From: Antarctobacter albus
Lineage (GTDB): Bacteria > Pseudomonadota > Alphaproteobacteria > Rhodobacterales > Rhodobacteraceae
Assembly (NCBI RefSeq): GCF_900101505.1
Contig: NZ_FMZI01000001.1
Coordinates: 124,001-188,000, forward strand
Reading direction: 5' to 3'
Length of the DNA: 64,000 nucleotides
Shown here piece after piece: positions 601 to 54,989 of this stretch; position 1 is the first letter of the stretch; every line of letters starts with the position of its first letter. The translations under genes and the position numbers were made by a program. The notes beneath the pieces were generated by a model, which worked only from the letters and a program-made list of their open reading frames with translations, was not told the origin of the DNA and did no database searches.

Positions 601-649
601 TTTGTACAAAATGCTGGAATCGACGTACGTTTCGTACGTTTTGTACAAA
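601..649 (-). repeat. Copy 1 of a 49-bp TTTGTACAAA element
   Basis: Read on the minus strand, it starts TTTGTACAAAACGTACG and ends GCATTTTGTACAAA. It matches the element at 54457-54505 at 39 of 49 positions without gaps. Both ends are the palindrome TTTGTACAAA, and an ACGTACG...GTACG core lies between. It begins 13 bp after the cinA stop codon and about 330 bp upstream of the amtB start. Confidence 0.8.
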
Positions 650-10207: not shown

Positions 10208-10822
10208 ATGAGGATGACACGGCGAGCGGCCCTGGGAATGGGGGGCTTGGCGCTGGCGGGCTGCGCGGCGCCCCCGGGCGCAAGAGCGCCGGGCGAGGAG
10301 AGGCCGGGACCGGCCTTTGCCGAGGTTCCGGAGGCCCCCGCAGAGAAGATCGCGCTGCTGGAACGGGCCGTGCTGGACCTGGGGCCGGACGTGGACCCGG
10401 TGGAAGCGGCAGCGGTGGCGCGCATTTCCGTGCGCGAGCCTCTGGTCTGGGCGGACCGCTGGGACGCTGTGGACCCGCCGCTGATCCACAACATCCAGGT
10501 GAACACCGGCCGCAAACCGCGCGGGCTGTGCAAGGACTGGGCGGACGATCTCGAGGCGCGGCTGAAGCGTGAAGGGCTGCGCAGCCTTTCGCTGCATCGG
10601 GCCATCGCCAATGCCGACAACCTGCGGATCGAACATTCGACGGTCATCGTCTCGACCCGTGGCGCGCCGATGGACCGGGGGCTGGTGCTGGACCCCTGGC
10701 GGCTGGGGCGGGGGCGGCTGTGGTTCGGCCCGGTTGCCAGCGACCCGAAATACCGCTGGGTGCCACGCGCCGAGGTCTTTGCCATGAAACGGGCCCGCCG
10801 CGCGCGCCGCGAGGAGCGATAG
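10208..10822 (+). CDS. Putative Tat-exported lipoprotein of unknown function
   Basis: 204 residues starting MRMTRRAALGMGGLALAGC: a twin-arginine pair, a hydrophobic stretch and a lipobox (LAGC), so it is probably a Tat-dependent lipoprotein. The mature part has no motif I recognise with certainty. Conserved-looking segments are RISVREPLVWADRWDAVDPP, GLCKDWADDL (one Cys) and IVSTRGAPMDRGLVLDPW, and a basic C-terminal tail (RARRARREER) closes it. It begins 14 bases after the ntrX stop, so it may be cotranscribed. A GTG at 10199 or an ATG at 10214 are alternative starts. Function unknown. Confidence 0.75.
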   Translation: MRMTRRAALGMGGLALAGCAAPPGARAPGEERPGPAFAEVPEAPAEKIALLERAVLDLGPDVDPVEAAAVARISVREPLVWADRWDAVDPPLIHNIQVNTGRKPRGLCKDWADDLEARLKREGLRSLSLHRAIANADNLRIEHSTVIVSTRGAPMDRGLVLDPWRLGRGRLWFGPVASDPKYRWVPRAEVFAMKRARRARREER

Positions 10823-10839
10823 TCGTCGGAACGGGACTG

Positions 10840-10858
10840 TTTGCGGCTTTGCCGCAAA
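10840..10858 (+). terminator. Hairpin after the lipoprotein gene
   Basis: Perfect 8-bp stem TTTGCGGC/GCCGCAAA with a TTT loop, 18 bases after the stop codon. There is no U tract, so termination would be weak or factor-assisted. Confidence 0.4.
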
Positions 10859-10990
10859 GGCGCCCGCCCGCCGACCCTGATGCGCGCCATTCGGCGCGGT
10901 CTTACCGCTCAAGGAATCACCAGGGAACAGGCGTGCCGCTGTTCCCCGAACCCATCCCTCGCTTTCCTGCTGCCTGGACCAGCCATCACC

Positions 10991-11043
10991 GGGGCGCAAG
11001 GGCAAGCCGCGCGTTCGCGCGGGGCTGTGCCCCCTTGCGCCCC
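10991..11043. repeat. Nested inverted repeat upstream of trkA
   Basis: The outer arms GGGGCGCAAGGG (10991-11002) and CCCTTGCGCCCC (11032-11043) are perfect 12-bp complements. Inside them CCGCGCG-TT-CGCGCGG (11007-11022) forms a second perfect hairpin. The cruciform or RNA stem is very GC-rich and resembles dispersed intergenic hairpins of roseobacters. No second copy was found here. Confidence 0.7.
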
Positions 11044-11195
11044 GGCGCCGTCTGGCCCCGATCGGCATCATGCGAGAGATGGCTCCGGGGAACAGCGGCT
11101 CGGGACCGAGGATGCAACCCATTGACGGCGCTGCCCCCGCGTGCGAGGCAATGAGGCCAGAGCCGGGACGCGGTGCAGATCGGGGCGCAGGGCGC

Positions 11196-47390: not shown

Positions 47391-47453
47391 CTTTGGGCCG
47401 AAAATACCTCCGGGGGTGAATGGGCCGCAGGTCCAGAGGGGGCAGCGCCCCCT
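47391..47453. repeat. Roseobacter-type dispersed intergenic sequence
   Basis: The stretch has CTTTGGGCCGAAAATACCTC, then CCGGGGGTGAA, and ends in a perfect hairpin AGGGGGC-AGC-GCCCCCT (47437-47453). I recognise closely related strings (GGCCAAAATACTCCGGGGG plus a G/C hairpin) as frequent in Rhodobacteraceae intergenic regions. Only one copy is in this window. It lies between the pqiA-like gene and radA. Confidence 0.6.
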
Positions 47454-54456: not shown

Positions 54457-54505
54457 CTTGTACAAAACGTACGTTTTGTACGCCGAAATCCGCATTTTGT
54501 ACAAA
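54457..54505 (+). repeat. Copy 2 of the 49-bp TTTGTACAAA element
   Basis: Begins CTTGTACAAAACGTACG and ends GCATTTTGTACAAA; 39 of 49 bases match copy 1 (601-649, minus). It contains a perfect 22-bp palindrome at 54460-54481 with half site GTACAAAACGT. It starts 82 bases upstream of the pyrE ATG and ends 13 bases from the stop codon of the HELVH gene. Confidence 0.8.
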
Positions 54506-54518
54506 CCGCGCGCAGTGC

Positions 54519-54989
54519 TCAGCAGCGGGCGTAGATCCGGCCCCAGAACATCCGGTTCGGAAGCGGGTCGGTGGTGCGGGTTTTCTTCAGGTAGCGCCCG
54601 CCCAGGGTGTAGGCCTCCGGCTCGCCCATCGCGAGACAGTCCCAGCTTTGCGAGGCGCCGCTTTTCCATTGAACGTAGTGGACCAGTTCGTGCAGCAGGA
54701 TCTCTCGCCACAGGGGGTTGTCCGTGGGGCTGTCGAAGTCCTCGGCATAGTCGATATGGGCCGGGGCCAACACGTAGATCGTGCCATTGGGGCCGTCGGT
54801 GCGTGCAAAGAGCGCGTTCAGACGATCGTCTACCCCGTCCTCGGGCATCAGATGGGCGACGCCGCTGTAATATTCGCGGGTCAGCTCCTGCGGGCTCATG
54901 ACGCGCACAATCGGGTGCGGCAGGTCATGGGTGTCATAGTCTGTCTCTTCGCCAATCCAGGCGAGCAATGCGTCGATGAGGATATCCAC
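54519..54989 (-). CDS. Small HELVH-motif protein, putative metallopeptidase
   Basis: 156 residues from a GTG at 54989 with AAGGGAG upstream (a frame open to 55082 has no ribosome site and overlaps likely operator DNA). The LLHELVHYVQW segment is the HExxH zinc motif, with a possible third ligand in GEPEAYTLGGRYL. RVMSPQELTREYYSG and GTIYVLAPAHIDY lie before it. No signal peptide. It resembles minimal gluzincin-type domains of unknown function. It is divergent from a CadC-like regulator. Confidence 0.78.
   Translation of the reverse strand: MDILIDALLAWIGEETDYDTHDLPHPIVRVMSPQELTREYYSGVAHLMPEDGVDDRLNALFARTDGPNGTIYVLAPAHIDYAEDFDSPTDNPLWREILLHELVHYVQWKSGASQSWDCLAMGEPEAYTLGGRYLKKTRTTDPLPNRMFWGRIYARC

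Follow-up and report, generated by a model that had tools for sequence, protein, structure and literature searches.

A polar four-box GTAC element scattered along a Roseobacteraceae chromosome may mark sites of chromosome organisation

Introduction

What does a short sequence built from GTAC boxes do when it recurs between genes of unrelated function? We met this question in a window of 64 kb, bases 124001-188000 of contig C34 in a genome of 5.26 Mb and 36 contigs (G000). We take the host of the element to be the Mameliella/Antarctobacter group of the Roseobacteraceae, and NCBI taxonomy resolves a Mameliella query to Antarctobacter, Roseobacteraceae. An earlier note had described a 49-bp element with two copies in the window and offered three readings of it: an operator for one regulator of amtB and pyrE, a dispersed site for chromosome organisation, or an RNA element.

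Both copies lie where they were said to be. Copy 1 (601..649, minus strand, box 1 at the 649 end) separates cinA/pncC from amtB. Copy 2 (54457..54505, plus strand) lies between pyrE, whose start codon is 84 bp from its box 1, and a minus-strand ORF of 187 aa in the ORF list or 156 aa by the gene caller, which has no family match. Compared by eye, copy 2 and the reverse complement of copy 1 align ungapped, with 39 of 49 positions identical. Other details of the description were right in part. A minus-strand stop codon lies 13 bp from each copy (that of cinA at 663, that of the ORF at 54519), but the common geometry that this implied falls away, as opposite ends of the element face the two stops. 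The perfect palindromes claimed for both ends fail for copy 2, where one end is the imperfect CTTGTACAAA, and the central ACGTACG is repeated in copy 1 only, copy 2 having a single occurrence.

Results

Architecture and copy number

The true repeat unit is 43 bp long and consists of four GTAC boxes at offsets 0, 9, 18 and 39, which gives the rigidly spaced plan GTAC-N5-GTAC-N5-GTAC-N17-GTAC. From box 1 to box 4, the boxes of copy 1 occupy 643..646, 634..637, 625..628 and 604..607 on the minus strand, and those of copy 2 occupy 54460..54463, 54469..54472, 54478..54481 and 54499..54502 on the plus strand. The element is not limited to these two copies. GTACN5GTACN5GTACN17GTAC matched exactly 36 times in G000, while the reversed control had no match, and a further copy with a single mismatch (L064) brings the genome-wide number to at least 37, or about one per 140 kb. 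The set analysed below holds 36 copies, namely 35 exact ones and L064; the exact copy L340 (C21:154k) is outside it. With up to three mismatches, a 17-base half of the element gave 75 matches genome-wide versus six for its reversed control. Within the 64-kb window, TTTGTACAAA with at most one mismatch occurred four times against 0.10 expected, a count that none of 100 shuffles reached. Three extra half-site matches outside the set (C22:18956, C30:193538 and C32:2540) were considered as a special operator of a reader protein and rejected, as they look like chance.

The 5-bp spacers between boxes (s1, s2 and s3) read AAAAC or GTTTT, in either direction, and intermediates are few. The 12 bases ahead of the last spacer (mid12) approximate GNCGATTCCNGC, and AAA directly follows box 4. 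Past this AAA, a degenerate right-hand motif (cGGcAAGG...GTTAACC) is present in roughly half of the copies and absent from both window copies.

Genomic placement

According to gene calls based on codon usage, all 36 analysed copies lie between genes. The one apparent overlap, at L042, is with an over-called N terminus, and the true left neighbour of L042 is an opposed HI0933-like gene. The gene on the box 1 side runs on the same strand as the element in 26 of the 36 copies, with its stop codon 5-26 bp away in 19 of these 26. Convergent genes flank 16 of the 36 copies, and one copy sits within the purE-purK junction. The neighbours include trpF, rplQ, yggS, purE-purK, an S41 protease gene, cobF, gatB, xth, uvrA, a GidA-family gene, gyrB, fabA, rpiA, cinA, pyrE, amtB and a glutamine synthetase gene. 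A scan of the left neighbour of every one of the 36 copies, and of some right neighbours, revealed no functional theme, and the copies are not placed upstream of related genes. Because they adjoin genes of unrelated function, a regulon is not supported. An operator of one amtB/pyrE regulator was accordingly rejected on gene content and on placement, with most copies behind the 3' end of the box-1-side gene.

We compared the left flanks of the 36 copies with the related genome G003. All but one (L035, unplaced) mapped to its chromosome, which makes up 4.72 of 5.3 Mb, and none mapped to the smaller contigs. The 35 projected sites lie 23 to 2261 kb from dnaA, the nearest within 23-41 kb, and their distances between origin and terminus fit a uniform distribution (KS p=0.53). 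Their spacing is not significantly more even than random (CV 0.83 versus 0.96), as 17% of random sets were equally even.

Orientation and GC skew

The copies are strongly polar. When each is read from box 1 to box 4, 34 of the 36 copies have a positive 8-kb GC skew (p=2e-8), the exceptions being L041 and L049. The same was found for 49 of 53 copies in two further genomes, which we take to be Mameliella sp. CS4 (G004, matched at 100% by a 248-bp CS4 fragment) and Mameliella sp. MMSF_3455 (G005); L081, at a locus edge, was omitted from this count. Beyond these, all 20 copies compared in G349, a genome of another genus, follow the skew (20-kb flanks). In G115, where 3-kb windows were used, the agreement is weaker at 6 of 10.

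Genes agree with the local skew in 148 of 283 cases in G000, 177 of 349 in G349, 305 of 641 in G003 and 185 of 334 in G002 (48-55%). Since genes show no skew bias, gene direction is not the cause of the polarity. Furthermore, copies that stand behind an opposed gene still follow the skew (9/9 by script, 10/10 with L042).

Local skew served here as a stand-in for replication direction, which it may represent at every copy. Two contigs contain the origin or the terminus. On C30 the sign of the skew switches around dnaA (104 kb), from which a minus copy at 79 kb and a plus copy at 145 kb diverge. On C34 the switch is near 500 kb; before it lie plus copies (178, 243 and 394 kb) and beyond it minus copies (545 and 616 kb). 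The orientation is thus from origin to terminus for both copies on C30 and for five of six on C34. The exception is window copy 1 (C34:124.6 kb), which points the wrong way for its arm and matches only the negative skew of a local pocket. The earlier note had named orientation-biased, scattered copies as the mark of a chromosome-structure site, and its reading as a dispersed chromosome-organisation site is so far supported by copies that nearly all keep to one skew strand and, this exception apart, flip at origin and terminus on these two contigs.

The pocket around copy 1 spans about 20 kb of a positive arm (C34:104-127 kb, the left end of the window). The matching region of G003 has a slightly negative skew (-0.007), and the element that G003 itself carries there is reversed too.

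Projected on G003, 27 of the 35 copies follow the local skew and 25 follow the arm. We tentatively ascribe this weaker agreement to rearrangement between the species. Local skew travels with inverted segments, so the past orientation of the copies is shown more surely than the present one.

The KOPS-like motif GGGNAGGG follows the skew at 68 of 101 occurrences in G000, 60 of 82 in G349, 125 of 149 in G003 and 77 of 98 in G002. The element is more polar than GGGNAGGG in G000 and G349.

Conservation and age

Conservation was examined at two distances. At the cinA locus the element is nearly unchanged in CS4 and MMSF_3455 amid DNA that aligns poorly, so copy 1 has orthologues in both; G001, G002 and G003 have none there. 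Copy 2 has its orthologue (L123) in MMSF_3455. Located through flanking genes, a copy with the exact pattern was found in at least one of the two species for 32 of the 36 sites. The whole pattern is kept at no fewer than 49 of 72 possible places (36 copies in two species), whereas a neutral set of 16 bases at 76% identity would, by an arithmetic estimate, survive intact in about 1% of cases. Across 48 measured orthologous pairs, 766 of 768 box positions are identical, a figure partly ascertained because the loci were chosen by a pattern that demands the boxes, which makes 49/72 the safer one. Identity is also high in s1 (236/240), s2 (239/240) and s3 (233/240) and reaches 521/576 in mid12. For comparison, the DNA around the same pairs is 88% identical upstream (mostly coding), 78% in the left flank, 81% directly right of the element and 74% farther out. 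The direction of the spacers is identical in 48 of 48 pairs. The earlier note had named a lack of further genomic copies and of conservation in relatives as grounds against it, and both are clearly contradicted.

Among 394 genomes of the family, a draw that included only G000 and G001 of the genus, the bare pattern was found in three: G000, G349 (21 copies) and G115 (6). For G349 we compared 20 of the 21 exact copies. The script called 16 of the 20 orthologous, all in equal orientation (14 by strong and 2 by weak gene matches), and the pair L153/L340 is a fifteenth secure orthologue, likewise in the same orientation. Over 15 such pairs of G349 and G000, no difference occurs in box 1, and the remaining boxes read GTAC on both sides except in one pair (L064). 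Between the boxes, s2 (28% identical) and mid12 (37%) have changed throughout. The direction of s1 agrees in 11 of the 15 pairs (48% expected, p=0.046). In G115, 3 of 10 copies are near G000 sites according to the script, one of them in opposite orientation.

Many sites are therefore old and inherited, and their spacer code has shifted as a set. That the code was re-set together at old sites fits co-evolution with a reader, and the divergence of s2 and mid12 at the G349 sites fits an altered specificity of that reader.

Two of the sites are common to three genera: the element adjoins xth at one and the HI0933-like gene at the other, a few bases away in every genus (for L042, the start codon was set by eye). 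No candidate reader gene stood out beside this pair of sites. In the Mameliella genomes a thioredoxin-TPR gene directly follows xth. At the corresponding G349 locus (L320), two minus-strand ORFs separate these genes, some 100-1500 bp to the right of the element, which has stayed with xth. One of the ORFs begins MFKDLTGRKFGTIMADPPWQF and looks MT-A70-like by eye.

Other dispersed repeats

G003 and G001 are without the GTAC element (half-site search, and no four-box array in the G003 DNA fetched). They carry a second dispersed element, with 55 matches in G003 and 52 in G001, one stray match each in G002 and G004, and none in G000 or G005. It consists of CTGTCCACGCGTGGACAG, a linker and then TTACAGAGRCG...TTTTACG...GTTAGG, and can also be written CTGTCCACGCGTGGACAG...TCAATGGGTTACAGAGRCG...GTTAGG, as at L295 and L312 on the G003 chromosome (C1:1924661 and C1:4471870). 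In the 755 kb of G003 that was fetched, 17 of 17 copies follow the local skew, while by chromosome arm 34 of the 55 G003 matches agree (p=0.10). The second element was found at four of 35 sites of the Mameliella GTAC element (L040, L043, L059 and L067). Chance might give about one of 35, so this sharing of places is only suggestive. Neither dispersed element came up when 400 kb of G002 was searched by k-mers.

For a further motif, CCCGGGATATTT, a strand bias is evident in G003 (13/15) and G002 (9/10) and absent from G349 (8/14) and G000 (1/4). Since other dispersed motifs of the relatives are strand-biased, polarity alone is no proof of function.

Several repeats were noticed as well. The intergenic motif CCCCGGGATATTT, alongside which GGGGCAGCGCCC is also frequent, occurs in the fetched regions of G003, G002 and G349, with one copy in the window at 47414 on the minus strand. 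It has the strand counts given above for CCCGGGATATTT (13/15 in G003, 9/10 in G002, 8/14 in G349 and 1/4 at the G000 loci). A palindromic repeat, GTAGGCCGGGCTTCAGCCCGGC, is present at about 8-10 places in the 755 kb of G003 (L311, L315 and others). Within the window, a dispersed repeat of about 290 bp (10822-11110) lies between an ORF and a downstream gene of 500 aa, presumably TrkA-like. It has many places of 71-78% identity in G004 and fewer in G001, G002 (to 81%) and G003; in G005 most pieces are short, with identity up to 98%. It had no match in Rfam.

Discussion

The best reading of these results, to which we give slightly less than an even chance, is that the element is a lineage-specific, polar protein-binding site for chromosome organisation or segregation. 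It would be an intergenic, chromosome-wide putative binding site of a single sequence-specific protein. Spread and polarity together point to chromosome organisation or segregation. Such a protein would read the four GTAC boxes in duplex DNA by their fixed spacing, and the cluster of three boxes with a single box 21 bp away would make the site asymmetric and give it a direction. About 37 sites, without obvious clustering between origin and terminus, would then point mostly along the movement of the fork. Most likely the protein would use this arrow in organising or segregating the chromosome, where it might load, steer or stop a DNA translocase, an SMC-type machine or a wrong-way fork. The spacers would suit a duplex reader. 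A-tracts narrow the minor groove, and a swap of A-run for T-run between boxes would keep it narrow while altering any reading of a single strand. That G001, G002 and G003 live without the GTAC element counts against this explanation. Our confidence in it was lowered a little, from an even chance, because the second element agrees by arm at only 34 of 55 matches compared with 17 of 17 by skew.

How does the element compare with known systems? SRS, the sequences read by SpoIIIE, are oriented from origin to terminus, and Ter sites are sparse, asymmetric and oriented on each arm. The sites matS (MatP), NBS (Noc) and SBS (SlmA) occur as tens of copies of one protein site and serve chromosome organisation; they are single symmetric palindromes, confined to the terminus or excluded from it. 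Omega heptads tolerate either box direction. With tens of chromosomal copies the element resembles matS, NBS and SBS, but it is asymmetric, polar and spread along the arms, with no restriction to the terminus as in matS. With the tandem boxes of operators such as the met-boxes of MetJ and the omega heptads it shares, by analogy, short box arrays at fixed spacing; it differs in its 9-bp box period with a distant fourth box and in not standing upstream of a regulon. It is like Ter sites, whether of Tus or RTP, in being sparse, asymmetric and oriented, yet its sites lie near dnaA and along the arms, and its box architecture is unrelated. In behaviour it is like KOPS and SRS, with an orientation from origin to terminus on both arms and a direction read by a protein (for the orientation of KOPS, see the abstract of PMC2680272). 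By local skew this orientation holds for the element (34/36 and 20/20), and it is weaker on G003 (25/35 by arm). KOPS, however, are 8-mers, whereas the element is 43 bp long, intergenic and built on four fixed boxes, and it has no 8-bp G-rich motif of the type recognised by the FtsK gamma domain. This clade also has its own skewed KOPS-like GGGNAGGG, which the consensus of the element lacks. REP/BIME sequences with their RAYT are likewise dispersed, intergenic (as are 36/36 copies here), palindromic and near 3' ends, but unlike them the element has four boxes at rigid spacing, keeps orthologous positions, follows GC skew and comes with no RAYT. The element works like an orienting set of sequences but departs from KOPS, Ter, REP and matS in the defining features named above.

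The alternative that survives best, although we consider it rather unlikely, is a non-autonomous mobile element whose insertion was strand-biased and linked to replication, for instance into single-stranded DNA at the fork, and whose copies were later fixed and partly co-opted. The copies are dispersed, intergenic, rich in palindromes and strand-biased, sister species hold other dispersed strand-biased families, and a 43-bp unit of four boxes is hard to imagine arising de novo at 37 places without copying. Inverted pockets that took a copy along fit a past insertion bias as well as they fit a present function. The arm-level count of 34/55 for the second element raised our estimate for this explanation marginally. 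Against it, the Y1/HUH transposase of the REP/IS200 type (PF01797) was absent from 10 genomes, while 5 of 14 control genomes were positive. A plasmid, phage or viral origin was considered and rejected, with no match in 72,556 plasmid records (PLSDB, E<=1) and one chance-level match of 24 bp to a Leuconostoc phage (two records). In IMG/VR the spacer-typed pattern had no match, and the untyped pattern matched at least 120 stretches that we judge to be mostly chance. Moreover, positions are stable across species and genera and strongly conserved, and site A, from which the element is absent in G000, looks like a local rearrangement and not like a clean empty site.

We regard as improbable that the element is a site of a global regulator or a roadblock to transcription, which would insulate 3' ends or act as a polar terminator. 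The frequent position shortly behind the stop of a same-strand gene, or between convergent genes, would be expected of such a site. Yet the copies follow the skew even behind a reversed gene, genes overall have no skew bias, the neighbours share no functional theme, and a strict GC hairpin with a T-run was found in the 175 bp after only one of the 36 copies.

The probability is equally small for a structured RNA or a single-stranded DNA hairpin formed by the self-complementary boxes, the latter as a lagging-strand signal. Three of four tested copies fold better than all 200 shuffles, as would be expected from self-complementary boxes; window copy 2 does not. The s1 and s2 spacers of the G000 copies also tend to be complementary (Fisher p=0.01), but those of G349 are little or not complementary. 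The folds vary from copy to copy, 9 of 36 copies have a broken central stem, and changes on the left of the outer stem (columns -3, -2 and -1) mostly face an unchanged A. Pairing is thus not conserved and shows no covariation, and these uncompensated stem changes argue against a conserved fold and for reading as a duplex. The RNA element proposed earlier loses further ground in Rfam, where the sole match in 12 loci, to a cobalamin riboswitch, lies outside the element (in L300). A Chi-like or Ter-like signal of fork polarity or strand, serving recombination, repair or replication restart, would account for the near-complete agreement with the local leading strand but is the least probable of all, with far fewer copies than Chi, no Tus (PF05472) in eight genomes (only E. 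coli was positive among 14 control genomes) and no concentration in the terminus half, the 35 sites on G003 being compatible with a uniform spread.

Among the open-access papers listed for TTTGTACAAA and its longer forms, none describes either dispersed element, and GTCCACGCGTGGAC brought up no paper; subscription papers were outside the scope, and most papers that match TTTGTACAAA we take to concern cloning primers. Passages of PMC7901474 on FtsK, KOPS and dif in Dinoroseobacter likewise describe no such elements.

A broader reading concerns the family as a whole, and we hold it to be doubtful. The Roseobacteraceae may possess chromosome signposts that are polar with respect to replication and rapidly re-coded, each lineage having a site code, and presumably a reader, of its own. 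Such a set could be lost and replaced within one genus, partly at the same places, unlike FtsK/KOPS, MatP, SlmA/Noc and Tus. Mameliella and G349 would use four-GTAC arrays, G001 and G003 the CTGTCCACGCGTGGACAG...TTACAGAGACG element. The arm-level count of 34/55 led us to trim our estimate for such a class slightly. To our knowledge polar DNA signals that span a chromosome are few, and for those mentioned above a reader has been identified. A sparse, asymmetric and strongly conserved element that keeps to the local leading strand more closely than KOPS-like motifs in the same DNA and changes its code would point to an undescribed chromosome-organising protein, and the change of code between relatives would point to co-evolution of site and reader.
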